From positions 310,001 through 374,000 of the forward strand of contig CALSPF010000002.1 of the NCBI GenBank assembly GCA_943788165.1: 64,000 nucleotides of DNA, read 5' to 3'. Made by a program: the position numbers and the translations under genes. This document shows, piece after piece, positions 41,648 to 61,865 of this stretch (position 1 is its first letter; each line of letters begins with the position of its first letter). The stretch is from an uncultured Flavobacteriaceae bacterium (lineage in GTDB: Bacteria; Bacteroidota; Bacteroidia; Flavobacteriales; Flavobacteriaceae). The notes under the pieces were generated by a model. It had not been told where the DNA came from and did no database searches. It saw only the letters and a list, made by a program, of their open reading frames with translations.

Positions 41648-42646
41648 ATGTTATCAAATAGTACCATACTTATCACAGGGGGAACAGGTTCTTTTGGAAA
41701 GAAGTTTGTTCGCATGACACTTGATCGTTACAATCCAAAAGCCATTATTATTTATTCGAGAGATGAAATGAAACAATGGGATATGGCGGAGAAATATCGT
41801 GATGATCAACGTGTAAAATTCATCATTGGAGATGTTCGCGACCGTGATCGTTTATCTCGCTCTCTCGATGGAGTGGATTATGTTGTTCATGCTGCAGCTA
41901 CGAAAATCGTCCCTACAGCAGAATACAATCCATTTGAATGCGTGAAGACAAATATAAACGGTGCGATGAATGTCATTGATGCCTGTACAGATAAGAAAAT
42001 CAAAAAAGCTGTAGCGCTTTCAACGGACAAAGCAAGCAATCCGATTAATCTTTATGGAGCAACCAAGTTAGCTTCCGACAAATTATTTGTTGCAGGAAGC
42101 TCGCACCTTAATTTAGATAAAACACAATTTTCTGTTGTACGCTATGGGAATGTAATGGGATCAAGAGGGTCGGTAATTCCTTTCTTCCTAACCAAAAAAA
42201 ATGAAGGGGTTTTACCCATTACAGATGATCGCATGACCCGTTTTATGATTTCTTTAGAAGAAGGAGTGAAATTGGTATGGCATGCTTTTGAAGACATGCT
42301 TGGAGGAGAGATTTATGTAAAAAAAATCCCTTCAATGAATATTACTGATATAGCAAAAGCTGTAGCTCCAGAAGCTGAGCAAAAAATTATTGGTATCCGC
42401 CCTGGAGAAAAATTACACGAGCAGATGATTGGGGTTGAAGATGCACCCCATACTTTCGAATATAAAGAACATTTTAAAATCCTTCCTGCAATCCATAATT
42501 GGTCGAAAGACCCTAACCGTATTAAAGATGGGGAAAAAGTCCCAGAAAACTTTCTATATAGTTCTGACAACAATAAAGAATGGATGAATGCTGATGAACT
42601 GGCCGAATGGATTGAGAAAAATAAAGATAAAATTGGATTGATTTAG
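41648..42646 (+). CDS. pseB: UDP-N-acetylglucosamine 4,6-dehydratase (inverting)
   Basis: ILITGGTGSFGKKFVRMTLDRYNPKAIIIYSRDEMKQWDMAEKY, AATKIVPTAEYNPFECVKTNINGA. Confidence 0.95.
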   Translation: MLSNSTILITGGTGSFGKKFVRMTLDRYNPKAIIIYSRDEMKQWDMAEKYRDDQRVKFIIGDVRDRDRLSRSLDGVDYVVHAAATKIVPTAEYNPFECVKTNINGAMNVIDACTDKKIKKAVALSTDKASNPINLYGATKLASDKLFVAGSSHLNLDKTQFSVVRYGNVMGSRGSVIPFFLTKKNEGVLPITDDRMTRFMISLEEGVKLVWHAFEDMLGGEIYVKKIPSMNITDIAKAVAPEAEQKIIGIRPGEKLHEQMIGVEDAPHTFEYKEHFKILPAIHNWSKDPNRIKDGEKVPENFLYSSDNNKEWMNADELAEWIEKNKDKIGLI

Positions 42647-44714: not shown

Positions 44715-45272
44715 ATGAGAGAATTGTTAAAACAGTACAGTGATTTACCCATTTTAGAATCAGAGCGATTGATTTTAAAGCCATTGTCGTTAAAATTCTT
44801 ATCGGAAAAATATGTAAGCTGGATGAATGACGAAGAAGTAATTCGTTATCTGGAATCAGGAGGGAATTACACCAAAGCTAAACTGGAACACTATCTATCT
44901 GAAGTAGAAATGAACCCCAAATATTTCTGGGCTATTGTAGTAAAAGAGTCGGGTGAACATATTGGAAACATCAAAATTGATCCTATTGATCCCATTCATC
45001 AACATGGAGAATATGGGATTATGATTGGAGATCGAAACGCATGGGGAAAAGGTATTGCAAGGGAGGCTTCTTCTTTGGTGATTGATTTTTGTTTTATGGA
45101 ATTAAATCTTCGAAAAATAAACCTTGGCTTACTAGCAACCAATAGTGCCGCAATTAAATTATACGAAAAATTAGGTTTCGAACAAGAGGCCTATTTTAAA
45201 GCACATGTTGATCACAAGGGTGAATTTGTGGATACTCTTCGGATGGCAATTTTTAATACCGCTATAAAATGA
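44715..45272 (+). CDS. GNAT N-acetyltransferase (RimJ/RimL-like; candidate sugar N-acyltransferase)
   Basis: ILESERLILKPLS, GEYGIMIGDRNAWGKGIAREASSLVIDFCF, NSAAIKLYEKLGFEQEAYFKAH. Confidence 0.88.
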   Translation: MRELLKQYSDLPILESERLILKPLSLKFLSEKYVSWMNDEEVIRYLESGGNYTKAKLEHYLSEVEMNPKYFWAIVVKESGEHIGNIKIDPIDPIHQHGEYGIMIGDRNAWGKGIAREASSLVIDFCFMELNLRKINLGLLATNSAAIKLYEKLGFEQEAYFKAHVDHKGEFVDTLRMAIFNTAIK

Positions 45273-46105
45273 AAATTGCTCTAGGTACTGTTCAGTGGGG
45301 TTTGAATTATGGGATTTCTAATAAAAGAGGAATTCCATCCGAACTGGAGCTTGATAAAATATTTGCTACGGCCAGTGCTAACGGGATCAATTTATTAGAT
45401 ACTGCTACATCCTATGGGGAAGCAGAAAGTAGAATTGGCAATCGATCAAGCGGTAAATTTAGAATTGTAACAAAAATAGGATCGATCAGTAAAGATAATT
45501 CTGTTGAACAACAAGTGAAAAAGTCACTGGAGAATTTAAAAACAACCTCTCTTTATGGTTGTCTTTTTCACAATGTAAATGAACTGCTAGAAACGCCCTC
45601 TATGTGGGGAGAAATGCAGGGTCAAAAAAAAGAAGGACGTATTGAAAAAGTAGGTTATTCATTATATCACACAGAAGAATTAGAAAGGTTACTTCAGTTA
45701 AATTTTATACCCGATTTGATTCAAATTCCTTTTAACCTCATTGATCAAAGATTTGAACCTTACTTCAAACAATTAAGTGAAATGAAGATTGAAATTCATG
45801 TTCGGTCCATTTTTTTACAAGGACTACTTCTGAATTTTGAAATGATGGAACAAGATAAATTCCTGGAATGGAGCCCAATTTGGAAGAAATATAAAGATTG
45901 GTTGAATGAGACAAATTTAACTCCCCTTGAGGCATGTATATGCCATGCTGAACACCATAAAGAAATTACAAATATTATCTTAGGTGTTGAGCAACTATCT
46001 CAATTAAAAGAAATCATTTTAGCTAGTAAAAAGAAAAGTATTGAGGCTCCAAAAGCATTTATTTCTACAGATCAAAAATTAATAAATCCCTTATCATGGC
46101 TTTAA
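45269..46105 (+). CDS. Aldo/keto reductase
   Basis: LGTVQWGLNYGISN...GINLLDTATSYGEAESRIG...GCLFHN...KVGYSLYH. Confidence 0.88.
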   Translation: MKIALGTVQWGLNYGISNKRGIPSELELDKIFATASANGINLLDTATSYGEAESRIGNRSSGKFRIVTKIGSISKDNSVEQQVKKSLENLKTTSLYGCLFHNVNELLETPSMWGEMQGQKKEGRIEKVGYSLYHTEELERLLQLNFIPDLIQIPFNLIDQRFEPYFKQLSEMKIEIHVRSIFLQGLLLNFEMMEQDKFLEWSPIWKKYKDWLNETNLTPLEACICHAEHHKEITNIILGVEQLSQLKEIILASKKKSIEAPKAFISTDQKLINPLSWL

Positions 46106-46764
46106 TTAAAGAAAACTGTTTCAATCATTATATAGATGAAATTAATACCGAACGAAAACGTAGATTACTTGGGACAAAAATAGTTGACACAAGAGCCAGT
46201 TATTTATGGGAAGAAGCATTAAAAATCGTTAATGAAAATGAAAAGCAGCAACTGATTGATGCATTTAATTTTGCAAAAACGGTAGAGTATGACCACCCTG
46301 GGTTATCATCAGAAATATATTTTGCACATCCTCTTCGAGTGGCAGCACTTGCAATTTTATTTTCAAATGAGAATCCAGTAGAAGCAGGAATAGTAGGTTT
46401 ATTACACAATGTTTTTGAAGTTTCCACAATATCTTCAGAGGTTATAGATCAACGGTTTGGTAAAGAGGTAACATTTATGATTACTACTCTAACAGTTGAT
46501 AGGGCTATTCAATGGGATTTGTTTTACAAAAAAAAATACTACACAAGTATTAATAACTTATCTGAAAATGCTAGAAAAGTCAAAGTAATTGACAAGTTTG
46601 ATAATCTATTTGTTTTAGGATTAAATCCAGATGCTGCAGTTAGGTCAAAATACCTTGATGAAATAAAAGTACATATTGTGCCTATTGTAATTAAAGACCT
46701 GCCCTTTATGTCAGATTATTTTTTAAGTTTAATTGATAATTGTGAAAAAATAGGAAAATTATAA
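46096..46764 (+). CDS. SpoT/RelA-like HD-domain protein lacking canonical HD/ED residues
   Basis: AHPLRVAALAILFSNENPVEAGIVGLLHNVFEVS...FGKEVTFMITTLTVDRA...KVKVIDKFDNLFVL aligns with the SpoT HD fold (HPLxVA...LLHDVVEDT...LVKLADRLHNMRTL). Confidence 0.75.
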   Translation: MALIKENCFNHYIDEINTERKRRLLGTKIVDTRASYLWEEALKIVNENEKQQLIDAFNFAKTVEYDHPGLSSEIYFAHPLRVAALAILFSNENPVEAGIVGLLHNVFEVSTISSEVIDQRFGKEVTFMITTLTVDRAIQWDLFYKKKYYTSINNLSENARKVKVIDKFDNLFVLGLNPDAAVRSKYLDEIKVHIVPIVIKDLPFMSDYFLSLIDNCEKIGKL

Positions 46765-46766
46765 AG

Positions 46767-47552
46767 ATGAATTTAGAATTAAAAGATAAAGTAGCGATCG
46801 TTACTGGCGCATCAAAAGGGATGGGGCTTGCAATTTGTGAGACCATGCTTAATGAAGGTGTAAAGGTCATGATGGTGTCACGCAACGAAAAACTTTTGAA
46901 GGAACTGAAAGAAAAATACACTGACCAAAAATTCCATGTAGATTTTTGTGCTGGAGATGTTTCCTCACCTGATTTGCATGAAACAGTAATTGAAAGGACA
47001 ATGAGTAGATGGGGATCTATTCATATTCTGATAAATAATGCTGGAGGTCCCCCTATGGGTTCGTTTTTAGAACAGAATGACAGTAGTTGGGATGGGGCAT
47101 TTCAAACTAACTTGATGAGTGTAATTCGTTTTTCTAAAGCTGTAACCCCTCATATGAAAAAAAACAAATGGGGGAGAATAGTGTCAATAACCTCGTCTTT
47201 AGCAATTGAACCTAGTCCAGTAATGGTTTTATCATCCACAATCCGGGCAGGGGTTAGCTCTTTTACAAAAGCCATTTCGACAGAACTAGCAGCAGATAAC
47301 ATAACAGTTAACGTTATATGTCCTGGAGGTGTTTTAACGGAGAGGTTGAAAAGTCTTATTGAAGATCGTACTATTCGAGAAAACAGGAGCTATGAGGAAA
47401 TTTTGAATGAAAGCCAAGCGAGTATTCCCGCCAATAGATTCGCATCTTCAAAAGAAATAGCAGATACCATTTTATTTCTTACCTCTGAAAATGGATCTTA
47501 TATTACTGGCGTAAGTCTTGCTGTTGACGGTGGCTTATTAAGGTCATATTAG
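46767..47552 (+). CDS. SDR-family oxidoreductase (atypical, lacks YxxxK)
   Basis: KVAIVTGASKGMGLAICE, INNAGGPPMG; active-site segment is VLSSTIRAGVSSFTKA instead of YxxxK. Confidence 0.85.
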   Translation: MNLELKDKVAIVTGASKGMGLAICETMLNEGVKVMMVSRNEKLLKELKEKYTDQKFHVDFCAGDVSSPDLHETVIERTMSRWGSIHILINNAGGPPMGSFLEQNDSSWDGAFQTNLMSVIRFSKAVTPHMKKNKWGRIVSITSSLAIEPSPVMVLSSTIRAGVSSFTKAISTELAADNITVNVICPGGVLTERLKSLIEDRTIRENRSYEEILNESQASIPANRFASSKEIADTILFLTSENGSYITGVSLAVDGGLLRSY

Positions 47553-47559
47553 TTCGATT

Positions 47560-48609
47560 ATGGATCTTTTCAAACCAGATATTTTTTCTCAATCAACGCC
47601 AAATTGGATAAAAGCCACACCCTATTTAGAAAACGAATTAGCACCGATAATTTCACAAATAGTTCCTTCATCTAGTTTGAATGAACTTGTAATTGAGTTT
47701 TCGGGTTCCATGGAAATTAATAGCTCAAATTTTAGATTATCTTTTTTGAACAAAAGGCACATTTTAAAAAAATGGCCATCTACGCAAGCTTACGCATGTC
47801 TTGTCAATATAGTGAAGACAAATTTGTTTTTAATAGACAATAAAATTCCAGTACCTGATGTGATTCCATTTAAAAATGGTCAAACAATTTTGGAGTGGAA
47901 TACTAATTTATGGACTTGTAGCGAATTTATAGATGGTGAATATTTTTCTGGAAGAAAAAATCAACTAAAAGAAGCATCCTTTATTACCGCAAAAACCGCC
48001 AATGCATTATACAATTTACCCGAGGAAATACACCCGACAAGAAAAATAAATCATAAAATAGATAAAACACTAGCATTGGTTAAAAAGACTGACCTTTTAA
48101 ATGTTAATTGGGAACAAATTTTCGGACATGATATCTCACTTTTGCTAGAAAAGAATTGGAGTAAGATTAAGCGGACGTGTATTGATTTAAAACAGGTAGA
48201 AATAGATGGTGGGCCAGTATTCCCAAATCATTATGATATGCATCCTCACAATCTACTGTTTATTGAAAATAAACCACTTTTTTTACTTGATTTTGATTCA
48301 ATTGTAGGAATTCCTGTAGGCTATTCAATCGCCTATTCAGCGCTCAAACAGTGCCGTCAATCAATTGCCTATAACCAAGATTTTAATGCTGTATCTCAAA
48401 TTGGAAAAAACTATATCGATTCTTTACATGAGAATTTAGATATAGGCGATATGAAATGGATAAATAATTTCAAGGCTTTGGCTCAAATGGAAACCTTAAG
48501 AAGGATAGGTATTGTACTTGAACTTAACCTTGATGGAAACAATGCTTGGAATAAAGTATTATACTTACTTATTTCTAATTTGTATGAAGCGGAAGAATTA
48601 TTTGATTAG
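47560..48609 (+). CDS. Aminoglycoside-phosphotransferase/choline-kinase-like protein
   Basis: FPNHYDMHPHNLLFIENKPLFLLDFDSIVGIPVGY: HxDxxxxN and DFD motifs of the APH kinase fold. Confidence 0.75.
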   Translation: MDLFKPDIFSQSTPNWIKATPYLENELAPIISQIVPSSSLNELVIEFSGSMEINSSNFRLSFLNKRHILKKWPSTQAYACLVNIVKTNLFLIDNKIPVPDVIPFKNGQTILEWNTNLWTCSEFIDGEYFSGRKNQLKEASFITAKTANALYNLPEEIHPTRKINHKIDKTLALVKKTDLLNVNWEQIFGHDISLLLEKNWSKIKRTCIDLKQVEIDGGPVFPNHYDMHPHNLLFIENKPLFLLDFDSIVGIPVGYSIAYSALKQCRQSIAYNQDFNAVSQIGKNYIDSLHENLDIGDMKWINNFKALAQMETLRRIGIVLELNLDGNNAWNKVLYLLISNLYEAEELFD

Positions 48610-48621
48610 AAAGGTAAAAAA

Positions 48622-49311
48622 ATGAAAAGAATTGCAATCATACCAGCTAGGGGTGGATCAAAAAGAATTCCACAGAAGAATATCAAAAGTTTCTGTGGAA
48701 AACCAATGATTAGTTACCCCATTCAAGCACTACTTGAAACCAATCTGTTTGATAAAATTCATGTATCAACAGATGAAAAAAAAGTAGTTGAGATGACAGA
48801 ACAGCAAGGCGTAAAAGTGGATTTTTATCGTCCTAAAAACTTGTCAGATGATTATACTCCGATAATGCCGGTGTTGAAATATGTGGTTAAAGAATATAAA
48901 AAAAGGGGTCAAACTTTTGATGAAGTGTGGGTCATACTTCCCTGTTCTCCGATGTTAAATGCTAAAGATTTAATAAAGGCTTCCATACGCTTTAAAGAAT
49001 CTCCTTCTTCAAATTCGTTAATGTCAGTGACAGAATACCCTGTTCCAATTGAATGGGCTTTTGAAACCAATGATAAGGGAGTTTTACAATCTTTAAATAA
49101 TGGTCATTTTGCAACAAGATCTCAAGACCTAAAGAAAAGATATTATGATGCAGGAATGTTTTATATTTATACTGAGAAGGTAGTTTCGAATGCTGAATAT
49201 GATGTGACTGATGAAAGGATTATCCCGTATTTCATTCCAAAAGGGAAAGCCATTGATATCGATGATATTGAAGATTGGGAGTACGCAGAAAAACTATTCA
49301 AAGTAAATTAA
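48622..49311 (+). CDS. pseF: Pseudaminic acid cytidylyltransferase (acylneuraminate CTP transferase family)
   Basis: AIIPARGGSKRIPQKNIKSFCGKPMISYPIQALLE, STDEKKVVEM, MLNAKDLIKA, EDWEYAEKLF. Confidence 0.93.
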   Translation: MKRIAIIPARGGSKRIPQKNIKSFCGKPMISYPIQALLETNLFDKIHVSTDEKKVVEMTEQQGVKVDFYRPKNLSDDYTPIMPVLKYVVKEYKKRGQTFDEVWVILPCSPMLNAKDLIKASIRFKESPSSNSLMSVTEYPVPIEWAFETNDKGVLQSLNNGHFATRSQDLKKRYYDAGMFYIYTEKVVSNAEYDVTDERIIPYFIPKGKAIDIDDIEDWEYAEKLFKVN

Positions 49312-50650: not shown

Positions 50651-51691
50651 ATGAAGAAAAAAGTGATTTTAATTAGAGTAAATCTATCACCTAAATTAGG
50701 CGCAGGTCACTTTATACGAATGATTGCTTTTGCAGATCTTTTAAAGAATAGTGGGTATAATATTAATTTTATTTCTTCTTCAGAAAACAAAGAATCAATC
50801 AACAGTATACTCAATGACAAGTATCCAATAATTTTCACTGACAAAAGTGATGCGCTTGAAGATGCAAAATTTATTATTGACGTGGCAACAAAATATACGG
50901 CTAAACTTGTCATTTTTGATGGAGCAGATTTCACAGAAGAATATGATATAATCTTAAGAGAAGCGAAATTAAAAACACTACACGTTGTAGATGTTCCAAA
51001 ACGAGTATATTCATCTGATTTTGTGCTTAATCAAAATCATAGAGCTAATGATTTTGATCATTTGATAGGACCAAATACAACCCTTTTAACAGGATTAAAA
51101 TATTTACTTCTTAGGGATCAATTTAAAGTGGCTAAAAAAACGAAATTAAATTCACTTAGAACCGAAAAAATTCATTTACTGATATGTTTAAGTGGTGGAT
51201 CTTTGATTACTGACAAAATGAATGAGACGCTTTTGCAAGCATTAATTACATCAAAAGATTTAGTAGATTCGGTCACAATTATATTTGGTAAAATGGGACT
51301 TATTACTGAAAAAGTAAAAAATATGGCATTAAAAGCTCCCATCGAAGTGAACCTGATGAATCATTTAGATGATATTTCACAAGAAATGAGGAAGGCCAGT
51401 TTTGCAATAACCTCTGGAGGAACAACGATGTGGGAGTTAATGTTTATGCAAATTCCTTTTATTGCATTAGCACTTAATACAGATCAAGAAAATTATTTAA
51501 AACTACTGAAGCGTGATAATATCTGTGAGATAATGGGAGATTTTGATCAAATGACGGTTTCACAAGTTAAAGAGAACTTAAAAAAATTCATGAAAAACAA
51601 ACCACTACACCAGCAATTTCTTAAAAAAACAGAATTACTGATGGACTCTGCAAAAACAAAAAATCAAATTTTAACTGCATTAAATCTATAA
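50651..51691 (+). CDS. pseG: UDP-2,4-diacetamido-2,4,6-trideoxy-altropyranose hydrolase
   Basis: GAGHFIRMIAFADLLKNSGYNINFISS, VIFDGADF, LHVVDVPKR, SFAITSGGTTMWELMFMQIPFIAL. Confidence 0.9.
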   Translation: MKKKVILIRVNLSPKLGAGHFIRMIAFADLLKNSGYNINFISSSENKESINSILNDKYPIIFTDKSDALEDAKFIIDVATKYTAKLVIFDGADFTEEYDIILREAKLKTLHVVDVPKRVYSSDFVLNQNHRANDFDHLIGPNTTLLTGLKYLLLRDQFKVAKKTKLNSLRTEKIHLLICLSGGSLITDKMNETLLQALITSKDLVDSVTIIFGKMGLITEKVKNMALKAPIEVNLMNHLDDISQEMRKASFAITSGGTTMWELMFMQIPFIALALNTDQENYLKLLKRDNICEIMGDFDQMTVSQVKENLKKFMKNKPLHQQFLKKTELLMDSAKTKNQILTALNL

Positions 51692-51694
51692 AAA

Positions 51695-52627
51695 ATGAGC
51701 ACGAATAATAACCCTCTTTTAAATTCCAACTTAGCCAAAATAATAGATCTTGTCTCTAAGGCTAATCCTCTTCAAAAAAAGAAAATACTCTCTTACGTTT
51801 CTAATCAAGATGAAAAGTACTTCTTGTTTGCAGAAAATTTAAGTAAAACAATAATTGAAGATTTTTTGACAACAGAAAAGGAACAAATCGATGCCGCCGC
51901 CGCCTACAATAAAATGTGTATGGACTTTCTGAAAGAGCAAATTAGATTTAAAAAAACTGGTGTTTATCGAATTGATGATGCAGCTATTGCAAATGAAGAA
52001 GTATATAGCGATCCTCTCGTAATGCGATATTATATGGTCGGCCTACTAATTTCTTATATGTTTTGGCCAAATCACTACCAATTATTTCAATTTTTCAAAA
52101 CACATTTACCCGTAAATGAACCTAAATCATATCTTGAAGTTGGTGTTGGACATGGCCTTTTTAGTTCGACAATGTTAAAAACATATCCTAATATTCAAGC
52201 CACATGTGTTGATATTAGTGAAACGTCAATTAAAACCGCCAAGGAAGTATTACAATCGTTTTATGTAAACACAAAAAACATAGACTATGTTCTTGGAGAT
52301 TTTTTCACAGTAGATATAAACAAGAAATTTGATTTCATTATAATGGGAGAAGTTTTAGAGCATGTTAATGATGCTTATGGGTTTATGCGACGAGCAAAAG
52401 AATTTTTAAAAGAAGATGGTAGAATATACATGTCTACCGCAGCAAATTCTCCGGCTTTAGATCATGTATATCATTTTCACAATGAAAAAGAAATTACTGA
52501 TTTACTTGATCAAACAGGTTTCCTTGTTGAAGATGATTTAGTTTTACCAGCTGATGACATTCCAAAAGAATTATGGGAACAAGAACTAGTTACGCTTAAT
52601 TATTGCTGCATTCTTAAACACAAATAA
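51695..52627 (+). CDS. Class I SAM-dependent methyltransferase
   Basis: YLEVGVGHGLFSSTMLKTYPNIQATCVDISETSIKTAKEVL, FDFIIMGEVLEHVNDAYGFMRRAKEFLKEDG. Confidence 0.88.
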   Translation: MSTNNNPLLNSNLAKIIDLVSKANPLQKKKILSYVSNQDEKYFLFAENLSKTIIEDFLTTEKEQIDAAAAYNKMCMDFLKEQIRFKKTGVYRIDDAAIANEEVYSDPLVMRYYMVGLLISYMFWPNHYQLFQFFKTHLPVNEPKSYLEVGVGHGLFSSTMLKTYPNIQATCVDISETSIKTAKEVLQSFYVNTKNIDYVLGDFFTVDINKKFDFIIMGEVLEHVNDAYGFMRRAKEFLKEDGRIYMSTAANSPALDHVYHFHNEKEITDLLDQTGFLVEDDLVLPADDIPKELWEQELVTLNYCCILKHK

Positions 52628-52629
52628 TT

Positions 52630-52932
52630 ATGTCAAGAGTTTTAATTATTGCAGCTCATCCAGATGATGAAAATATAGCCTTTGGAGCGACCATAAGAAA
52701 TTTTGTTGATCAAGGTCGTCAAGTTGAATTATCAACCTTTACATATATTGAAGGAGCAAGGAATGAGATGAGTATTAACAGGAATTGCCTATTGGAAAAA
52801 ACAGCAAAAACACTCCGGATGAGTAATTACATAGTTGGTAATTTCCTCTACAATGCATTGGATGGGATTCTATCTTTAGGTGTTGTCAAATTTATTGAAG
52901 AAAGAATTCATCATGACGTAAAGATTTTTTAA
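52630..52932 (+). pseudogene. PIG-L/LmbE deacetylase, C-terminally truncated
   Basis: VLIIAAHPDDENIAFGATIRNFVDQGRQVELSTFT (AHPDDE motif), but the ORF ends after ~100 aa at FIEERIHHDVKIF*. The region carrying the later His motif is missing. Confidence 0.75.
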
Positions 52933-52949
52933 AAATAAAACTAAAAATC

Positions 52950-54770
52950 ATGGATAGTGAATTACGCTCAAAATTTAAAGATATTGGAAAGGTTCCAAGT
53001 TATATGAGTTACCTGGGGTTAAACAATGAAATTGAAAAGCTCAAACCTTCGATTGAAAAGGAAAGGATTAAAATTTCCTTTTTAAGGAACTATACTGTTG
53101 AACCTATTCTTCCTATACTGAAATGCGAATTATTTAAGTCAGGCTTTTTAGCCGAATTTTATCTGAGTGATTTTGACACCATTGCTTCTGAGACACTAAA
53201 TACAGAGAATGATTTTTATGATTTTAATTCAGACTTAATCATTCTTACCCAATGGCTTAGGTTATTATCTGAAAAAATCACTTCTTCATTATTTAAAATG
53301 TCTGAAAAAGAAAGAGAAGATGAAACATTAAGAATAATAAATCAGTTTAGATTATTCTTAAATGGAATTCGCGCCAATTGTGATACCCCCATAATAATCA
53401 ATAATTTTCCCTTACCCAAGCATGTCGTTTTGGGTATTTTAGATCATCAAACAGATTATTCAGAACGTAAATGGTACAATAAATTAAATGAATCATTAAT
53501 TGAATTATGCCAAGAAATACCAAATGTTTATTGTTTAAATTTAGAAGCTATTTTTAATTCTGTGGGGATTGAAAATGCTTTTGAATCAAGAAAATGGGAA
53601 TCGTCCAAATCACCGTTCACTTTTTCTGCTTTATTGCCATTGGCCAAAGAATACGATAAATACATGCGAGCAATTTTTGGAAAAACAAAAAAATGCTTGA
53701 TTCTAGATTGTGATAACACATTATGGGGAGGCGTTATTGGAGAGGATGGAATTGATGGAATTAAAATTGGCGGAACCTACCCGGGCAGCTCGTTTCAATT
53801 CTTCCAGCAACAAATCTTAAACCTGAATCATAGAGGGATAATATTAGCAGTATGTAGTAAAAATAATGAACAAGATGTTATTGATGTTTTTGAAAATCAC
53901 GAGCAAATGAAATTACGTCTTTCTGATTTTATTAGTTTTAAGGTTAACTGGGAAGATAAAGCAACAAATATTCAATCAATTGCGAACGAACTTAATATAG
54001 GATTGGATAGTATCGTTTTTATGGACGATAGCGAATTTGAATGTGATTGGGTTTCCACTCAGTTACCAGAAGTAACAGTTTTACATTTGGAAGGGGAACC
54101 AGTTAACTATTCTAGTAGATTATTTGAAGAGGGGTATTTTGATTCGTTATCTTATATAGAAGCAGATAAAAATAAAACGGACATGTATAAAGCGGAAGCC
54201 AAGCGGAAGCAACTCCATTCGAATGCAAATTCTTATGAAGAATATTTAAAAAGCTTAGATTTACATGTAAATATTGAAAAAGGGAATAAAAAAAATGTAG
54301 ATAGAATTTCCCAGCTAACGCAAAAAACGAATCAGTTCAATTTAACGACAAAAAGATATACACCTGGACAGATAGAGGAGTTAATTCACAATAACGACTA
54401 CGATATTTTCACAATGCAAGCTTATGACAAAGTAGCTGATTTAGGGATAATTGCCTCTTCAATCATTTTACATCAAGATGAATATTCAGTAATTGATTCA
54501 TTGATGATGTCATGCAGAGCTCTAGGTAGAGGTTTAGAAAATGCCTTTTTAACTTATATAATCGAATCATCGAAAAAGAGGAATAAAAAAAGAATAAGAG
54601 GTGTGTACATTCCAACAAATAAAAACAAACAAACAGAAGATTTTTATAAGAAAAATAACCTGAAAAGAGTAGATCAAATTGAAAAACAAATAATTTGGGA
54701 ATTAGACTTAACTGAAAACACTTCAAAAAATTATCCAAACTGGATAACTATAAACGCAAACAATAATTAA
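52950..54770 (+). CDS. FkbH-like HAD-IIIC protein
   Basis: 606 aa; KCLILDCDNTLWGGVIGEDGIDGIKIGGTYPGSSFQFFQQQILNLNHRGIILAVCSKNNEQDVIDVFENH, IVFMDDSEFECDWV. Confidence 0.93.
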   Translation: MDSELRSKFKDIGKVPSYMSYLGLNNEIEKLKPSIEKERIKISFLRNYTVEPILPILKCELFKSGFLAEFYLSDFDTIASETLNTENDFYDFNSDLIILTQWLRLLSEKITSSLFKMSEKEREDETLRIINQFRLFLNGIRANCDTPIIINNFPLPKHVVLGILDHQTDYSERKWYNKLNESLIELCQEIPNVYCLNLEAIFNSVGIENAFESRKWESSKSPFTFSALLPLAKEYDKYMRAIFGKTKKCLILDCDNTLWGGVIGEDGIDGIKIGGTYPGSSFQFFQQQILNLNHRGIILAVCSKNNEQDVIDVFENHEQMKLRLSDFISFKVNWEDKATNIQSIANELNIGLDSIVFMDDSEFECDWVSTQLPEVTVLHLEGEPVNYSSRLFEEGYFDSLSYIEADKNKTDMYKAEAKRKQLHSNANSYEEYLKSLDLHVNIEKGNKKNVDRISQLTQKTNQFNLTTKRYTPGQIEELIHNNDYDIFTMQAYDKVADLGIIASSIILHQDEYSVIDSLMMSCRALGRGLENAFLTYIIESSKKRNKKRIRGVYIPTNKNKQTEDFYKKNNLKRVDQIEKQIIWELDLTENTSKNYPNWITINANNN

Positions 54771-54771
54771 A

Positions 54772-55011
54772 ATGACAAATCAAGACAAATTAAAACAAAT
54801 TTTAGCCAGTGTATTTAATATAACGGTAGAAGAAATCACAAATGATTCCTCCCCTGATACGATCGAAAACTGGGATTCACTCAATCATTTAAATTTAGTT
54901 TTGGCTTTAGAAGAAGAATTCGAAATTAATTTCACCGAAGAACAAACAGTTGAAATTTTGAATTATGAACTTTTAGTCATCACGCTAAGGGAACAAGGAA
55001 TAGACATATAA
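54772..55011 (+). CDS. Acyl carrier protein #1
   Basis: 79 aa; IENWDSLNHLNLVLALEEEFEINFTEEQTVEILN: phosphopantetheine DSL motif. Confidence 0.92.
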   Translation: MTNQDKLKQILASVFNITVEEITNDSSPDTIENWDSLNHLNLVLALEEEFEINFTEEQTVEILNYELLVITLREQGIDI

Positions 55012-56390
55012 TGAGTAAAATTGAACTCTCTTTAGCTAAAACTCCATCCATCACCGAGGTTTTTTCCCGCATGGAAGCAAACAAAGATTTGATTGCTCTT
55101 TTTTGGGAAGGAAAAAAGTACAGTTATGCAACTCTCTTTGAAAAAATAGCATACTGGGACAAAGTTCTCCAGGAAAACCAAATTGAACAAGGAACAATAT
55201 GTGCTTTTCAAGGCGATTATTCCCCAATGGTTTGTGGCTTGATTTTTTCTCTAATTAAAAAAGGGGCAATATTAGTTCCTTTTACAGACGAAATTTCAAA
55301 TGAGATAGATTCTTTTTTAGAGATAAGTTGCGCAGAAATTTTTGTAAAATTTTCAAAAGACGATACTTATTCTATTTCAAAGGTTAATCCAGTAAGTACA
55401 AATCCCTTGATTTCTAAATTTTTAGAGACTAAGCATCCAGGTTTAATAGTTTTTACCTCTGGATCAACGGGAAAACCTAAAGGGATACTTCATGATTGTG
55501 AATATGTAATGAGCAAGTTTGTCGTTGAACGACAAGGTTGGAAAACAGTATTGTTTTTACTCATGGATCATTTTGGAGGATTCAATACCTTATTGAGTAC
55601 TTTCGCTTATTTAGGTACAGGTATCTGTGTTCCAAATAGAACACCTCATGATGTTGCAAAAGCGATTCAAGATGGTAAGGCAAATTTATTACCGACCACT
55701 CCAACCTTTCTCAATTTGATGATCGCCAATAAGATTGAAAAGTTTTATGATTTAAGTTCAATGGAGTTAATTTCTTATGGAACGGAACTTATGTCACAAA
55801 CCACACTTGAACAAGTGAATAAAATGTTTCCTAAGGTAAGAGTCAAACAAACCTACGGATTGTCAGAACAAGGCGTTTTACATTCAAAATCTGAAAAGAA
55901 TGACTCTACCTGGCTTAAAGTTGGAGGACCAGGATTTGAAACTAAAATCATAGACAATATACTTTGGATAAAGTCAAAATCAAATATGGTTGGTTATTTG
56001 AATGCTCCAAATCCATTTGATAAAGATGGTTGGCTTTGTACAGGAGATGAAGTTGAGGTAAATGGAGAATATATTAGATTCAAGGGTAGAAAAACAGAAA
56101 TAATTAATGTTGGAGGGAAAAAAGTGTATCCAATTGAAGTAGAAAATATTTTATTAAAAGTAGAAAATGTCAAAGATGCTTCAGTGTTTGCGAAATCACA
56201 TGAAATAATGGGACAAATTGTACACGCCAATATAACGACAAATAAAGAAACCGATAATATGAGTTTAATCCGTGAATTACGTGTTTTTTGCAATGCTAAT
56301 TTGCCTCGATATAAAGTCCCTGTTAAATTTAATATTTCAGTTAAAGATGATTTGCATAATGCTAGATTTAAAAAATCTAGAAACTTGTAA
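55011..56390 (+). CDS. AMP-binding acyl-CoA/acyl-ACP synthetase
   Basis: LIVFTSGSTGKPKGILHDCE, RVKQTYGLSEQG, GWLCTGDEVEVNGEYIRFKGRKTEIINVGGKKVYPIEVENILLKVENVKDASVF. Confidence 0.93.
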   Translation: MSKIELSLAKTPSITEVFSRMEANKDLIALFWEGKKYSYATLFEKIAYWDKVLQENQIEQGTICAFQGDYSPMVCGLIFSLIKKGAILVPFTDEISNEIDSFLEISCAEIFVKFSKDDTYSISKVNPVSTNPLISKFLETKHPGLIVFTSGSTGKPKGILHDCEYVMSKFVVERQGWKTVLFLLMDHFGGFNTLLSTFAYLGTGICVPNRTPHDVAKAIQDGKANLLPTTPTFLNLMIANKIEKFYDLSSMELISYGTELMSQTTLEQVNKMFPKVRVKQTYGLSEQGVLHSKSEKNDSTWLKVGGPGFETKIIDNILWIKSKSNMVGYLNAPNPFDKDGWLCTGDEVEVNGEYIRFKGRKTEIINVGGKKVYPIEVENILLKVENVKDASVFAKSHEIMGQIVHANITTNKETDNMSLIRELRVFCNANLPRYKVPVKFNISVKDDLHNARFKKSRNL

Positions 56391-56402: not shown

Positions 56403-56936
56403 ATGATTAGAATGATTGCTTTAAAAAAAGATCACATGGAATTGCTTCTCAAGTGGAGAAAACAAGCCAGAGTCAAAGATGCAATGCTAACTGAGGTAAA
56501 TCATTCGCTTGAAAAACAATTTGAGTGGTACAATTCAATTCGTAATGATCCATCTAAAAAATATTGGCTAATTACCTTTGAAGAAAAACCTATTGGGGTA
56601 ATTAACTTAAGTGAAATAGATCAAGTAAATAATAAATGCTCGGCAGGCTTTTTAATAGGAGAAGAATCCTTTTCCTCCCTTGGAGCGATTGTTTTACCTG
56701 CTTTATACAATTATATTTTTAAGAAAAGAGGGTTTCTTAAAGTCTATGGATCTGTGGTTTCAAGCAATAAAACGATTTTAAAAATTCATGAAATACATGG
56801 GTATAGACAAATAGGGTATTATGAAAAGCACATTTTGAAAAACAATGAATATATTGATATTATTCTTGTGGAATTAATGGCTGAAAACTGGTTAAGTAAA
56901 AAGAAATTTGCTTCATATGAAGCAGAATGGGATTAA
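56403..56936 (+). CDS. GNAT acetyl/acyltransferase, PseH-like candidate
   Basis: KDHMELLLKWRKQARVKDAMLTEVNHSLEKQFEWYNSIRNDPSKKYWLITFEEKPIGVINLSEID resembles PseH-type GNATs. Confidence 0.8.
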   Translation: MIRMIALKKDHMELLLKWRKQARVKDAMLTEVNHSLEKQFEWYNSIRNDPSKKYWLITFEEKPIGVINLSEIDQVNNKCSAGFLIGEESFSSLGAIVLPALYNYIFKKRGFLKVYGSVVSSNKTILKIHEIHGYRQIGYYEKHILKNNEYIDIILVELMAENWLSKKKFASYEAEWD

Positions 56937-56952
56937 TTTTAAAAATATAAAA

Positions 56953-57246
56953 ATGAATAACAACGAAGCATACGAACTTATTGATGGTGTAGTGAAAAAT
57001 TTAGTAGCCTCTGATGCTATTAATACAATAGATGGATTTGACGAACAAACAATTGTTCTGGGAAATGGATCCGTTTTAGATTCAATTAGTTTTATTACGT
57101 TCATAACAGATATTGAGGATAAACTCCAAGAAGTGACGGGTAAAGAGCTTTATTTAGTATTAAATGAAATAAATAATTTTAACGTAGACAATCCAAACTT
57201 AACAGTTGGAGGATTAGCAACTTATTTAGCTACATTGAGTAAATAA
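56953..57246 (+). CDS. Acyl-carrier-protein-like protein #2
   Basis: 97 aa from ATG 56953; IVLGNGSVLDSISFITFITDIEDKLQEVTGKEL: DSI motif and ACP helix II pattern. Confidence 0.75.
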   Translation: MNNNEAYELIDGVVKNLVASDAINTIDGFDEQTIVLGNGSVLDSISFITFITDIEDKLQEVTGKELYLVLNEINNFNVDNPNLTVGGLATYLATLSK

Positions 57247-57257
57247 TTAAATTTCGA

Positions 57258-57959
57258 ATGGTAATATTAATTACAGGAACAAGTAAAGGATTAGGGAGGT
57301 ATTTAGCAGAATACTACTTGAAAAAAACGCACACCGTTATTGGTTGCAGTTTGTCAGCAAATGTCATTATGCACCCCTCTTATCATCACACTCAATTAGA
57401 TTTGAGCAATGAATCCAATGTGCGTTCTTGGGTCAATTCTGTTCGTAAAAAATTTCAGACTATAGATGTACTAATTTGTAACGCAGCAATTGTTAGTTCC
57501 GCTTTATTTTTAACCTTAACTCCAGGAAATTTAATGGAATCATTTTTAAAGACGAATGTTGCTGGAGTCTTTTATATTTTACGTGAAGTATCTAAACAAA
57601 TGATCAAGCAAAAAAGGGGAAGAATAATTGCAATATCTTCGATTACGACTGCAACACATCAAGAAGGAACATCTGTTTATTCAGCGACTAAATGTGCAGT
57701 CAATGAATTGATTAAAATACTTGCTAAAGAAGTTTCCTCCAGTAATATAACATGTAATGTTATTGCCCCGGGGATGATGAAAACAAATGCAAGCGAAGAA
57801 TTGGCTAAGAAACTTGAGTGGGAAAAAGAAATGTTACAAAAACAAACTATTCAAAGGGTTATTCTAAAAGAAGAAGTAGCCCATGTGTCAGATTTTTTAA
57901 TTTCTCCTAGAAGTTCAAGTATAACTGGGCAAGTCATTTATCTAGGATTATCAAATTAA
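57258..57959 (+). CDS. SDR-family oxidoreductase (FabG-like)
   Basis: VILITGTSKGLGRYLAEYYL, LICNAAIVSS, AISSITTATHQEGTSVYSATKCAVNEL. Confidence 0.9.
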   Translation: MVILITGTSKGLGRYLAEYYLKKTHTVIGCSLSANVIMHPSYHHTQLDLSNESNVRSWVNSVRKKFQTIDVLICNAAIVSSALFLTLTPGNLMESFLKTNVAGVFYILREVSKQMIKQKRGRIIAISSITTATHQEGTSVYSATKCAVNELIKILAKEVSSSNITCNVIAPGMMKTNASEELAKKLEWEKEMLQKQTIQRVILKEEVAHVSDFLISPRSSSITGQVIYLGLSN

Positions 57960-57966
57960 TTGTTTC

Positions 57967-58620
57967 ATGCAAAGAAGAGAAGTTTACATAAACGAAGATT
58001 TCAAAATTATCACCCTCATTACAGGAACGTTAAAGCAAAACTGTTTTATAATTAAACATTTAAATTCCTCTGAGATTATTTTAATTGATCCGGGTGATGA
58101 TGAGGACAGTATTCTTAAAATAATAAAAGAAGAAGGAAATCTTTTAAAACATGTATATCTTACCCATGCCCATTATGATCACGTGGGAGCCGTAAAAAAA
58201 ATTGTTGATCATTATAACATTCCCTATTATATTCATTCTGCTGATTTGAAGTTATTAAAAAGAGCTTCGCTTTATTCAATTAGCATGGAGAATAGAGACA
58301 TCCCTTTTTCAGACAACTATCAATTTTATGATACAGAAATGATTTTATGGGTTGATAAGAGAATTGAGATTATTCCTGTACCTGGTCACACACCTGGAAG
58401 TGTTGCAATTAAGATTGACGATTTAATTTTTTCTGGAGATTTAATTTTGATGAACTCAGATGACATAACTAAATTGCCTGGACATAACGTTGATCAGAGT
58501 AAAAAATCAATTGAATTTTTAGTTCAAAATGTCCAAGAAGATTCAATTTTTTTTTTGGGCCATGGGAAAAACGCTAAATTTTCTGTTATCACGAACCACT
58601 TAAGCAAACTAAATAAATAA
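57967..58620 (+). CDS. Metallo-beta-lactamase-fold hydrolase (glyoxalase II-like)
   Basis: THAHYDHVGAVKKI, VPGHTPGSVAIKIDDLIFSGD, FLGHG. Confidence 0.9.
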   Translation: MQRREVYINEDFKIITLITGTLKQNCFIIKHLNSSEIILIDPGDDEDSILKIIKEEGNLLKHVYLTHAHYDHVGAVKKIVDHYNIPYYIHSADLKLLKRASLYSISMENRDIPFSDNYQFYDTEMILWVDKRIEIIPVPGHTPGSVAIKIDDLIFSGDLILMNSDDITKLPGHNVDQSKKSIEFLVQNVQEDSIFFLGHGKNAKFSVITNHLSKLNK

Positions 58621-58621
58621 G

Positions 58622-59617
58622 ATGGAATTAGATTACGGGATTGGAATATTAGGGGTGGGTAAATATTTGCCGAAAGATGAGAAAACAAATGCTCAGCTGG
58701 AAAAATCTACTAAAATTCCAGCATCAGAAATAGAACAAAAAACAGGAATAATAACGAGGAGGATAGCTGCTGAAAATGAGGTTGCTTCCCAGATGTCTGC
58801 TACGGCGGCTAGGTTGGCAATTAAATCTGCCGGAATAGACTCCTCTCAAATTGGTTTAATTGTCACATGCACATTTACAGGTGATTATGTATATCCAGCG
58901 GTATCATGTAAGATACAAGAACTGATTGGTGCAAAAAATGCAGGAGCATTTGATATAATGGCAAATTGTACTGGCTTTCAAGTTGGTTTGGGAGTTGTTT
59001 CTGATAAAATGAAATTAGATTCTTCGATTAAATATTCATTATTAATTGGGAGTGCATTGCAGTCTCCTTTTATTGATTGGACGGATGGAGGTTCTTCCAT
59101 CTATTTTGGAGATGGAGTTGGGGCTGTCGTTCTAGGTCAGGTTGAAAAAGGATATGGTATTATATCAAATGAAATAAAGAGTAATGGTAGAGTTTTTGAT
59201 TCTGTTCGCCTCAGGGGTGGTGGATCAAGCTTTCCTTTAAGAGAAAAGAATATAAATCAAAACCTTCAGTATTATGAGTTAGACGGTTTAGAGGTATGGA
59301 AGCAAGTAATTCAGCACCAACCCAAGGTTATGAAAGACTCTTTGTCAAAAATAAATAAAACCTTAGATGATGTTGATTTTTTCATTTTTCACCAAGCAAA
59401 TCTTCGGCTAATTGAGTTTTTAATGAAGCGTATGAAGAAACCAATGTCTATGACATATACCAATATGGAAAAATATGGGAACACAGCAGACGCATCACAG
59501 GCAATTGCCTTGGCAGAAGCCTACGAACTTGGAAAGTTCAAGAAAAACGATTTGATATTAGTCACTGGTGTTGGAGCTGGTTTTATCTTTGGATCTACAA
59601 TAATAAAGTGGCATTAA
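58622..59617 (+). CDS. 3-oxoacyl-ACP synthase III (KASIII/FabH-like)
   Basis: Apparent Cys-His-Asn triad: MANCTGFQVGLG, FFIFHQANLRLIEF, KYGNTADASQAIAL. Confidence 0.93.
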   Translation: MELDYGIGILGVGKYLPKDEKTNAQLEKSTKIPASEIEQKTGIITRRIAAENEVASQMSATAARLAIKSAGIDSSQIGLIVTCTFTGDYVYPAVSCKIQELIGAKNAGAFDIMANCTGFQVGLGVVSDKMKLDSSIKYSLLIGSALQSPFIDWTDGGSSIYFGDGVGAVVLGQVEKGYGIISNEIKSNGRVFDSVRLRGGGSSFPLREKNINQNLQYYELDGLEVWKQVIQHQPKVMKDSLSKINKTLDDVDFFIFHQANLRLIEFLMKRMKKPMSMTYTNMEKYGNTADASQAIALAEAYELGKFKKNDLILVTGVGAGFIFGSTIIKWH

Positions 59618-59627
59618 ATAATACAAG

Positions 59628-60803
59628 ATGGAATTTGAAGACATTAAAGTAGGTAAGATTGAGCGATTTTCACATCAAATCACTAAAGGGGAGGTAGATA
59701 GATTTGCTGAGCTAACAGGCGACTTTAACCCTATTCATGTAGACACTGAATACGCATTAAAAACAAATTTTGGAAAAAGAGTTGTTCATGGAATGCTCAC
59801 TTCTTCTTTTATTTCTACAATGATTGGAATGCGTATACCTGGTAAAGGGTCACTCTGGTTGTCGCAGACATTAAACTTTATTAATCCAACATTTATTGGC
59901 GATACAATTGAGGTTAGTGCAGAAGTCATAAATGTATTTAAATCAACAAGGACTTTTAAACTTAAAATAGCAATAACGAATCAAGACAATAAGCAGCTGG
60001 TTCATGGAGAAGCTGTGGTTAAAATGTTAGAATTAAAAAAAACAAAAAAAAAACAGATGACAAATAATATCGTTTTAATTACAGGAGGTAATAGAGGAAT
60101 TGGAGCAGCTACAGCAAAACAATTGGTGAAGGAAGGTTATTTTGTCATTATAAATTACAAAAGTCAATCTGAATATGCAGACCAACTAGTAAAGGAATTA
60201 AATAAAGAAAACGTAAATTCTGTTGCTGTTCAAGCTGATATTTCACGTTTTCATGAAGTCAATGAGCTTTTTAATCATGTGGAAGAAACACATGGAAAAA
60301 TACTCAAAGTAGTCCATTGTGCCTCCCCACTGCCAGTTCCAACCCCTTTTTTAGAAACAGAATGGGAAGATTTTGAACTGCATCATAACACACAAGTACA
60401 TGGAGCATATAACTTATCAAAAAGAGCTCTTCCAAATATGATTCAAGAAAAACAAGGATCAATTGTTAATTTGGGTACAATATTTACAGACGGTACTCCT
60501 CCAGCGCAACAATCTCCTTACATTTCTTCAAAGGCTTCATTAACTTCATTAACCAAAACATTAGCCGTAGAATATGGTTCTAAAGGGATACGTTTTAATG
60601 TGGTCAATCCAGGAATGACGCATACTCAAATGTTGTCTGGAATTCCAGATAAAGTAAAACTAGTCACAAAAATGAATACACCATTAAAAAGTTTAGCAGA
60701 ACCTGAAGATATAGCGAATACCATAGCGTTTTTAATAAGCGATAAAGCGGGGCATATTACAGGAGAAACTATTCGAGTTTGTGGAGGAATATTTATGAGC
60801 TAA
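59628..60803 (+). CDS. Fused MaoC-like (R)-hydratase + SDR/FabG-like reductase
   Basis: N-terminus FAELTGDFNPIHVDTEYALKTNFGKRVVHGML (MaoC hot-dog); after KKTKKKQM linker, NNIVLITGGNRGIGAATAKQL...SPYISSKASLTSLTKTL (SDR). Confidence 0.88.
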   Translation: MEFEDIKVGKIERFSHQITKGEVDRFAELTGDFNPIHVDTEYALKTNFGKRVVHGMLTSSFISTMIGMRIPGKGSLWLSQTLNFINPTFIGDTIEVSAEVINVFKSTRTFKLKIAITNQDNKQLVHGEAVVKMLELKKTKKKQMTNNIVLITGGNRGIGAATAKQLVKEGYFVIINYKSQSEYADQLVKELNKENVNSVAVQADISRFHEVNELFNHVEETHGKILKVVHCASPLPVPTPFLETEWEDFELHHNTQVHGAYNLSKRALPNMIQEKQGSIVNLGTIFTDGTPPAQQSPYISSKASLTSLTKTLAVEYGSKGIRFNVVNPGMTHTQMLSGIPDKVKLVTKMNTPLKSLAEPEDIANTIAFLISDKAGHITGETIRVCGGIFMS

Positions 60804-60830: not shown

Positions 60831-61865
60831 ATGAAAAAATTATCAACATTTCTGGAAAACAGCGTTTTCATAATTGCTGAGCTTTCAGCGAATCATGCTG
60901 GCAAAAAAGAAGTAGCCATTGAGACCATTAAGGCGGCTAAACGAGCTGGAGCAAACGCAATAAAACTGCAAACATATACAGCTGATACCATGACTCTAAA
61001 ATCTGACGCAAAAGATTTTTTAATTGATCATGAAACAGTTTGGGATGGTCGTTACCTTCATGATTTATATAAAGAGGCTTCAACACCATGGGAGTGGCAC
61101 AAAGAATTATTTAATATTGCCAATGAAGAAGGTTTAATTTGTTTCTCGTCTCCTTTCGATTTTACAGCAGTTGATTTTTTAGAATCGTTAGACAATCCAA
61201 TTTATAAGATTGCTTCTTTAGAGATTACGGATATTCCACTAATAGAGTATATCGCTCAAAAAGAGAAACCCATGATTATTTCAACAGGAATAGCTACTCT
61301 TGAGGATATTGAACTTGCACTTGATGCCTGTAAACGTATGGGTAATAATCAAGTCTCATTACTTAAATGTACATCAAGTTATCCAGCTCCTATGGAGGAA
61401 GCCAACTTGAGTATGATAGCCGATCTAGCAAATCGATTCAAGGTATTTTCAGGACTTTCTGACCATACGCTTGGAATTACTGCCCCGGTAATAGCCGTAA
61501 CTCAAGGAGCAAAAATTATTGAAAAACATTTTATATTGGACAGATCTATAGGTGGACCTGATGCTAGCTTTTCATTAAACGAACAAGAATTCACACAAAT
61601 GGTTGCTGCAGTTAGAGAAGCAGAAGTTGCTTTGGGTAAAGTCGATTATAATTTAACGAGCAAACAACGTCTAGGGCGAAACTTTTCAAGATCTTTATAT
61701 ATTGTAAAAGATGTAAAAAAAGGAGATGTGGTAACCTCCAAAAATGTGCGATCTATTCGACCAGGTTTTGGTATGCACCCTAAACATTTACCTATTATCA
61801 TAGGGAAAACCTTCGTTAAAGATTTCACCTCAGGGACACGAATGGAACAAACACTAATACAATAA
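60831..61865 (+). CDS. pseI: Pseudaminic acid synthase (NeuB family)
   Basis: VFIIAELSANHAGKKEVAIETIKAAKRAGANAIKLQTYTADTMTL, YKIASLEITDIPLIEYIA, LSDHTLGITAPVIAVTQGAKIIEKHFILDRSIGGPDASFSL; SAF-like C-terminus. Confidence 0.95.
   Translation: MKKLSTFLENSVFIIAELSANHAGKKEVAIETIKAAKRAGANAIKLQTYTADTMTLKSDAKDFLIDHETVWDGRYLHDLYKEASTPWEWHKELFNIANEEGLICFSSPFDFTAVDFLESLDNPIYKIASLEITDIPLIEYIAQKEKPMIISTGIATLEDIELALDACKRMGNNQVSLLKCTSSYPAPMEEANLSMIADLANRFKVFSGLSDHTLGITAPVIAVTQGAKIIEKHFILDRSIGGPDASFSLNEQEFTQMVAAVREAEVALGKVDYNLTSKQRLGRNFSRSLYIVKDVKKGDVVTSKNVRSIRPGFGMHPKHLPIIIGKTFVKDFTSGTRMEQTLIQ

Follow-up and report, generated by a model that had tools for sequence, protein, structure and literature searches.

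A candidate ten-gene cassette with FkbH for acylating a sialic-acid-like sugar, located in the pseudaminic acid operon of an uncultured Flavobacteriaceae bacterium

Results

Location and Composition of the Cassette

The stretch of DNA analysed here (the window; 64,000 nucleotides from an uncultured Flavobacteriaceae bacterium whose assembled genome, G000, measures 2.18 Mb at 94.6% completeness) contains a run of genes on one strand, 23 in number (41648-63308), for the biosynthesis of the sialic-acid-like sugar pseudaminic acid (Pse), in which ten further genes are placed between those for PseG and PseI within one tight operon. These ten, the cassette, code for a methyltransferase, the FkbH protein, an acyl carrier protein (ACP1), an adenylating ligase, a GNAT-type N-acyltransferase (GNAT2), a second carrier protein (ACP2), a short-chain dehydrogenase/reductase (SDR2), a protein of the metallo-beta-lactamase (MBL) fold, a FabH-like enzyme and a MaoC-FabG fusion protein. 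A previous interpretation of the letters alone (the sequence-only reading) had described FkbH, ACP1 and the ligase as a unit inside a sialic-acid-like gene cluster. The open reading frames (ORFs) and domain matches confirm these three genes as intact at their positions within the run, and the type of cluster was recognized correctly, as PseB, PseC, PseF, PseI and one PseH-like GNAT exceed the respective NCBIfam cut-offs; absent from that unit were ACP2, FabH, MaoC-FabG, the MBL protein and the methyltransferase.

The sequence-only reading had also deduced a stoichiometric function of the three products from the close spacing of their genes. The spacing is indeed tight, with a single nucleotide, rather than the two that had been given, between the FkbH stop codon and the ATG of ACP1, and a 1-nt overlap (TAATG) by which the ligase ATG meets the ACP1 stop. 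However, the other genes are packed as closely: between PseB and the flippase gene, each of the 22 junctions measures from -10 to +27 nt, and the spacing therefore indicates an operon, not stoichiometry.

The Glyceryl-Loading Pair

FkbH (52950-54770, + strand) consists of an N-terminal domain, detected as FkbH_N, a HAD-IIIC phosphatase domain and an acyltransferase domain with Cys522, and is predicted to be a glyceryl-S-ACP synthase. The protein exceeds the TIGR01686 cut-off (288.7 versus 146.65 bits) and contains the DCDNTLWGGV motif in the intact form noted before; moreover, an alignment of ten FkbH proteins, comprising that of the window and nine relatives of 26-34% identity, shows no variation at D253, D255, S303, K337, D359, D360 and C522. 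Its closest solved structure is BF1531 (3slr), and the gene is present as a single copy in the genome. The adjacent ACP1 (54772-55011, + strand) is recognized as a PP-binding protein (21.7 versus 20.8 bits) and has Ser36 in a DSL motif at residue 35; a phosphopantetheinyl transferase gene is located elsewhere in the same genome (C2:399661). That FkbH stands beside its own ACP, as had been pointed out, is typical of the family, since a same-strand ACP gene follows within 600 bp downstream in 61 of the 94 FkbH loci having room for it. As judged from these features, FkbH and ACP1 appear to be the usual glyceryl-loading pair, and glyceryl loading from 1,3-bisphosphoglycerate is established for the FkbH family (PMC7489565). 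No FkbH relative was found in the search of viral contigs, and the plasmid matches in Rhodobacteraceae and Niveispirillum belong to other loci, without annotated Pse genes; around the FkbH match on pSymB of S. meliloti, the collection used has no annotated genes.

A protein of the VOC/glyoxalase fold recurs near FkbH or its ACP in several other loci (L072, 9630-10034; L032, 7353-7730; L035, 12010-12390; L185, 11909-12337), as assigned by Pfam or annotation for L072 and L185 and by a look at the sequence for L032 and L035; such a protein might epimerise the C3 unit.

The Ligase and Its Presumed Partners

The ligase (55011-56390, + strand) carries the N- and C-terminal AMP-binding domains and retains TSGSTGKPKG, YGLSE, TGD and the C-terminal lysine region. 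It is placed in a MupQ/TmlQ-like clade and shares 34% identity with the enzyme of the thiomarinol plasmid pTML1, the gene of which is, to judge from its position, probably tmlQ. Its best plasmid matches come from Burkholderia, Bradyrhizobium and pTML1, and in the tree it groups with these enzymes and with the ligases of three genomes (G600, G612 and G522) at a support of 98/98, apart from generic ligases. Only five proteins in 396 Bacteroidota genomes are good matches (37-57% identity, at least 346 bits), the next one scoring 122 bits. The structure model (pLDDT 80) supports membership in the adenylating superfamily only and gives no substrate. The relatives on pTML1 and in Burkholderia and Bradyrhizobium stand ahead of an SDR, then a small carrier and a polyketide synthase (PKS), and G600, G612 and G522 show the order carrier-SDR-ligase without FkbH. 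Because relatives of the ligase thus adjoin an SDR and a carrier without FkbH, and both are present here, the ligase is proposed to act with ACP2 and SDR2 and is not evidently the partner of ACP1. The interpretation of the sequence-only reading is thus partly supported: its two loading routes are retained, their convergence on one shared ACP finds no support, and the gene arrangement suggests two routes to two carriers.

ACP2 (56953-57246, + strand; Ser44 in DSI), which is proposed to act together with the ligase and SDR2, has no match in Pfam or NCBIfam. Its Asp-Ser pair is invariant in the alignment, the structure-model alignment being built from window and genome loci only. By profile, ACP2 aligns to ACPs (hhalign probability 83%, E 8.6e-6), its model shows ACP-type helices (pLDDT 81.9), and many of the upper matches of a fold search of the PDB are carrier proteins, with MacpD (6tg5) reaching the top query TM-score of 0.62 at an E-value of 2.1. 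SDR2 (57258-57959, + strand), the reductase of the ligase-SDR-ACP trio, forms a branch of its own (100/99), which is joined with the reductases of pTML1, Burkholderia and Bradyrhizobium and one of genome G676; the split of this whole group from the FabG-type enzymes of the genome is supported at 99/96. Taken together, the ligase, SDR2 and ACP2 appear to resemble the MupQ/MupS/MacpD priming cassette.

Similar trios are also found next to other types of genes. On plasmids of Burkholderia stagnalis (L187) and Bradyrhizobium (L188), ligase, SDR and ACP stand directly before a large PKS and an alpha/beta hydrolase, and on a Rhizobium plasmid (L190, 7037-13249) an ACP2-type carrier, an SDR and a MupQ-type ligase adjoin a CmlS-like halogenase and an alpha/beta hydrolase in an uncharacterised cluster.

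Remaining Genes and Recurrence of the Cassette

The other members, all on the + strand, are an S-adenosylmethionine-type methyltransferase (51695-52627; motif EVGVGHG), the PseH-like N-acyltransferase GNAT2 (56403-56936), which scores 98.2 against the TIGR03585 cut-off of 93.1 and has PseH (4xpk) as nearest solved structure, the MBL-fold hydrolase, a possible thioesterase (57967-58620), the FabH-like beta-ketoacyl-ACP synthase III (KAS III; 58622-59617) with intact Cys-His-Asn motifs, and a MaoC dehydratase fused to a FabG-like reductase (59628-60803). All ten genes recur in genome G509 from another Bacteroidota family (locus L161) in a different order, namely ACP2, SDR2, MBL, FabH, methyltransferase, MaoC-FabG, FkbH, ACP1, ligase and GNAT, followed by a DegT aminotransferase; the identities to the proteins of the window are 41% for FabH, 33% for the methyltransferase and 39% for MaoC-FabG. 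FdtA is encoded upstream of this set and, together with DegT, points to a 3-amino-deoxyhexose, not Pse. Five of the genes stand consecutively on a contig of a metagenome-assembled genome (MAG) labelled Acidovorax (L046), coding for MBL (37%), FabH (63%), MaoC-FabG (50%), the FkbH-adjacent methyltransferase (51%) and FkbH (41%). The gene for the closest ligase (57%), in genome G654, adjoins those for a methyltransferase, a GNAT, an aminotransferase and an FdtA-like ORF, the latter being named from its sequence and not from a profile scan. These contexts lead us to propose that the kit moves between sugars, with an N-acyltransferase as a frequent neighbour where the ligase or the whole kit adjoins sugar genes. 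In three congeners of the window genome (G008, G010 and G016), the Pse locus lacks the cassette, and two of them have the same helix-turn-helix gene (72-74%) beside it; it is therefore likely that the window genome acquired the cassette as an accessory element.

FkbH and ACP in Other Pse Operons

The combination of FkbH and ACP occurs in the Pse operons of three lineages, those of the window and two others, both of which are without the ligase-SDR-ACP trio. A MAG labelled Melioribacter (L072) encodes PseB, PseC, a PseG-like ORF, a methyltransferase, a PseH-like GNAT, a VOC protein, FkbH, ACP and PseI, and a member of the Acidobacteria (L063) PseB, PseC, an aldo-keto reductase (AKR), an unassigned ORF, FkbH, ACP, a GNAT, a HemL-type aminotransferase, PseG and PseI. 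L072 and the locus of G740 (L156) are identical in sequence and were counted once. Furthermore, at the end of one of its contigs, congener G014 encodes PseC (85%), MaoC-FabG and an FkbH that is divergent (33%). Within the 396 Bacteroidota genomes, FkbH lies within 10 kb of an above-cut-off PseI in one of 25 loci besides that of the window, versus about 0.02 expected, and this locus has the same sequence as L072.

In G575 and G764 (L157, L158), a protein of 615-620 amino acids is transcribed divergently beside PseB; showing only 21% identity to FkbH, these proteins were not counted as members of the family.

Host Operon and Surroundings

The host genes on the + strand begin with those for PseB (41648-42646) and for PseC (42648-44714), the latter extended in frame at its N-terminus by an RmlD-like reductase domain (RmlD at residues 3-285, PseC at 301-679). 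They are followed by GNAT1 (44715-45272), a second PseH-like acyltransferase that stays below the cut-off (61.7 versus 93.1), and further downstream by PseF (48622-49311) and a PseG-like protein just below its cut-off (50651-51691; 139.1 versus 153.55), while PseI (60831-61865) follows the cassette. An HD-domain protein, a further SDR (SDR1) and an APH-like kinase are encoded between AKR and PseF (46096-48609). At 52630-52932, a PIG-L deacetylase is shortened to 100 amino acids, covering Pfam positions 1-48 of 129 with HPDDE retained; ending 17 nt before FkbH, it probably represents a gene relic at the border of the cassette. Elsewhere in the window, the minus strand carries a run with glycoside hydrolases that, to judge from the letters, is like a SusC/SusD polysaccharide utilisation locus (4471-29104).

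Discussion

We consider it reasonably probable that the ten genes form a portable cassette by which a short, hydroxylated acyl group of an unusual type is assembled on carrier proteins and then passed to an amino group of the Pse precursor. The evidence consists of the gene content, the intact catalytic residues, the recurrence of the unit, and the presence of FkbH-ACP in the Pse operons of three lineages. Going by what is known of the respective families, 1,3-bisphosphoglycerate would supply FkbH with a C3 unit, to be deposited as D-glyceryl on ACP1, while the MupQ-like ligase would separately put a dicarboxylic unit on ACP2, the far end of which would be reduced by SDR2 to yield an omega-hydroxyacyl-ACP. 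Extension, dehydration or reduction, and O-methylation may then be carried out by FabH, MaoC-FabG and the methyltransferase, and the MBL enzyme may edit or release the acyl group. Finally, the PseH-like GNAT2 would carry the group from its carrier to the 4-amino sugar, where it would later be found at N-7 of Pse.

Several points weigh against this view. The use of acyl-ACP instead of acetyl-CoA by GNAT2 is assumed, the two GNATs of the operon could serve two separate acyl groups, and the evidence for this organism is genomic. The full set of ten is present only in the window and in L161, with five in L046. Regarding the mupirocin-like trio, the E-values of the ACP2 fold search are not significant by themselves, and SDR2 appears to be weaker evidence than ACP2, since it shares no more than 26% identity with the pTML1 reductase and BLAST gives it no greater similarity to that enzyme than to FabG; the tree split alone groups the two.

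A more specific version of the proposal, which we put forward only tentatively, treats all ten genes as parts of one assembly line, in effect a dissociated PKS of miniature size that would serve only a sialic-like sugar. FabH would join the glyceryl unit from FkbH and ACP1 with an omega-hydroxyacyl or malonyl unit on ACP2, and reduction, O-methylation and transfer by the GNAT would lead to Pse with an N-linked polyhydroxylated short polyketide, the kit being swapped between sugars such as Pse here and the 3-amino-deoxyhexose in L161. Alternatively, two independent acyl pathways may lie side by side, with FkbH, ACP1 and the methyltransferase providing an (O-methyl)glyceroyl group for one amine via one GNAT, and the ligase, SDR2 and ACP2 with FabH and MaoC-FabG a hydroxyacyl group of the 3-hydroxypropionyl, 4-hydroxybutyryl or 3-hydroxybutyryl type for the other. 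The occurrence of the trio without FkbH in G600, G612 and G522, of FkbH-ACP without the trio in L072 and L063, and of two GNATs in the operon would agree with such a division; however, with all ten genes in L161 there is only one GNAT, and likewise only one aminotransferase for the sugar, favouring one combined product, and FabH, MaoC-FabG, the methyltransferase and FkbH stay together in L046, which makes this alternative rather doubtful.

The view of the sequence-only reading, that ACP1 receives from the ligase an activated free acid as a second starter or in a relay with glyceryl, fits the overlap of the ligase ORF with the ACP1 stop and the preserved adjacency of the two genes in L161, but is regarded as improbable, given that members of the ligase family usually adjoin an SDR and a different kind of carrier, that ACP2 appears to represent this kind here, and that such a ligase is found near only two of about 100 FkbH loci, one of them an unconfirmed match. 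Very little probability is assigned to a small secondary metabolite, a tetronate-like or methoxymalonyl-containing polyketide, merely located in a capsule locus: FkbH, ACP and FabH also make up the tetronate glycerate set and FkbH with a methyltransferase belongs to the methoxymalonyl set (PMC7489565), but the operon genes include no PKS, FkbI/FkbK-type dehydrogenase or Agg4/Agg5-type gene, the cassette is inside a tight operon between PseG and PseI, and its relatives adjoin amino-sugar genes. As specific pathways, the methoxymalonyl-ACP pathway (FkbG-K) was rejected, as neither an FkbK- nor an FkbI-type dehydrogenase is among the operon genes, and so was a tetronate glycerate-utilisation operon, of which FkbH, ACP and FabH are present and the Agg4 acyltransferase, the Agg5 dehydratase and the PKS are absent.

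If the portable cassette indeed acylates Pse, its novelty is in the combination of glyceryl loading, a mupirocin-like priming trio and sugar acylation by KAS III, ketoreductase, methyltransferase and GNAT, each known, in one transferable kit. Non-acetyl N-acyl groups on bacterial sialic-like sugars affect the recognition of surface sugars, and many of their genes are unknown. The FkbH-ACP pair in Pse operons of three lineages suggests a concrete candidate for the formation of N-glyceroyl-Pse in Tannerella and dimethylglyceric Pse in Campylobacter. The findings on the ligase further suggest that the ACP/reductase/ligase sets of flagellin islands, described as fatty acid synthesis genes, could be priming cassettes of the mupirocin type with omega-hydroxyacyl products.

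Comparison with Known Systems

The ligase of the window belongs to the clade of the pTML1 enzyme and has an SDR and a putative small ACP nearby, an arrangement like that of MupQ, MupS and MacpD in the mupirocin/thiomarinol systems. Unlike these, SDR2 and ACP2 are on a separate branch, an MmpF-type ketosynthase is missing, and the context is that of an amino sugar. The thiomarinol version uses succinyl-CoA to form a 4-hydroxybutyryl group. In the mupirocin system, malonyl-CoA is turned into 3-hydroxypropionyl-ACP by MupQ, MupS and MacpD (PMC10098928). The glyceryl-ACP systems of FK520 and the tetronates, e.g., tetromadurin (Mad7/Mad8, Mad14/Mad12), likewise have FkbH beside a stand-alone ACP (PMC7489565); the HAD and acyltransferase residues are all retained in the window, and FabH-like and methyltransferase partners occur in both. 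In contrast to those systems, neither a PKS nor the dehydrogenases leading to hydroxymalonyl-ACP are found here, and the set is part of a Pse operon in which the final step probably falls to a GNAT.

The viosamine island of Pseudomonas syringae (vioA, B, M, S, R and acp) produces an N-hydroxyacyl amino sugar, with mutant and mass spectrometric evidence for part of the set, and shares an ACP, a FabH-like KAS III, a FabG-like ketoreductase, an N-acyltransferase and a methyltransferase with the window; it differs in acting on dTDP-viosamine with a 3-hydroxybutyryl group and in having no FkbH, ligase, MaoC or MBL protein (PMC3927599). Flagellin islands of Aeromonas group II and Enterobacteriaceae contain ACP, FabG, AMP-synthetase/CaiC, LuxE and LuxC (PMC7874193, PMC4875605). 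As likened by their description, they share genes for Pse or other glycans and an ACP-reductase-ligase set, possibly of the ACP2-SDR2-ligase kind, but have LuxE/LuxC where the window has FkbH/FabH.

With respect to the presumed product, the closest parallels are Pse derivatives themselves. Tannerella forsythia carries Pse with N-glyceroyl at C-7, for which the candidate gene has been termed elusive (PMC6120980) and the genetic basis a major challenge (PMC6388019). Campylobacter jejuni 11168 produces a di-O-methylglyceric Pse that depends on cj1295 (PMC3068675), the only gene that the cited papers link to this group by mutation, and its flagellin glycan locus includes the fkbH-domain gene cj1302 (PMC7099621). 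As far as the relevant passages of the latter paper go, strain 12664, in which cj1302 is a pseudogene, has no dimethylglyceric derivatives; strain 12661 is also without the group and is reported to be without cj1301, not cj1302; and the authors draw no link between cj1302 and the dimethylglyceric group (PMC7099621). In view of the pattern in strain 12661 and of the link not being drawn, the idea of cj1302 as source of this group is only consistent with these data. The Pse end products of Tannerella and C. jejuni are of the kind that FkbH, ACP and a methyltransferase would give.

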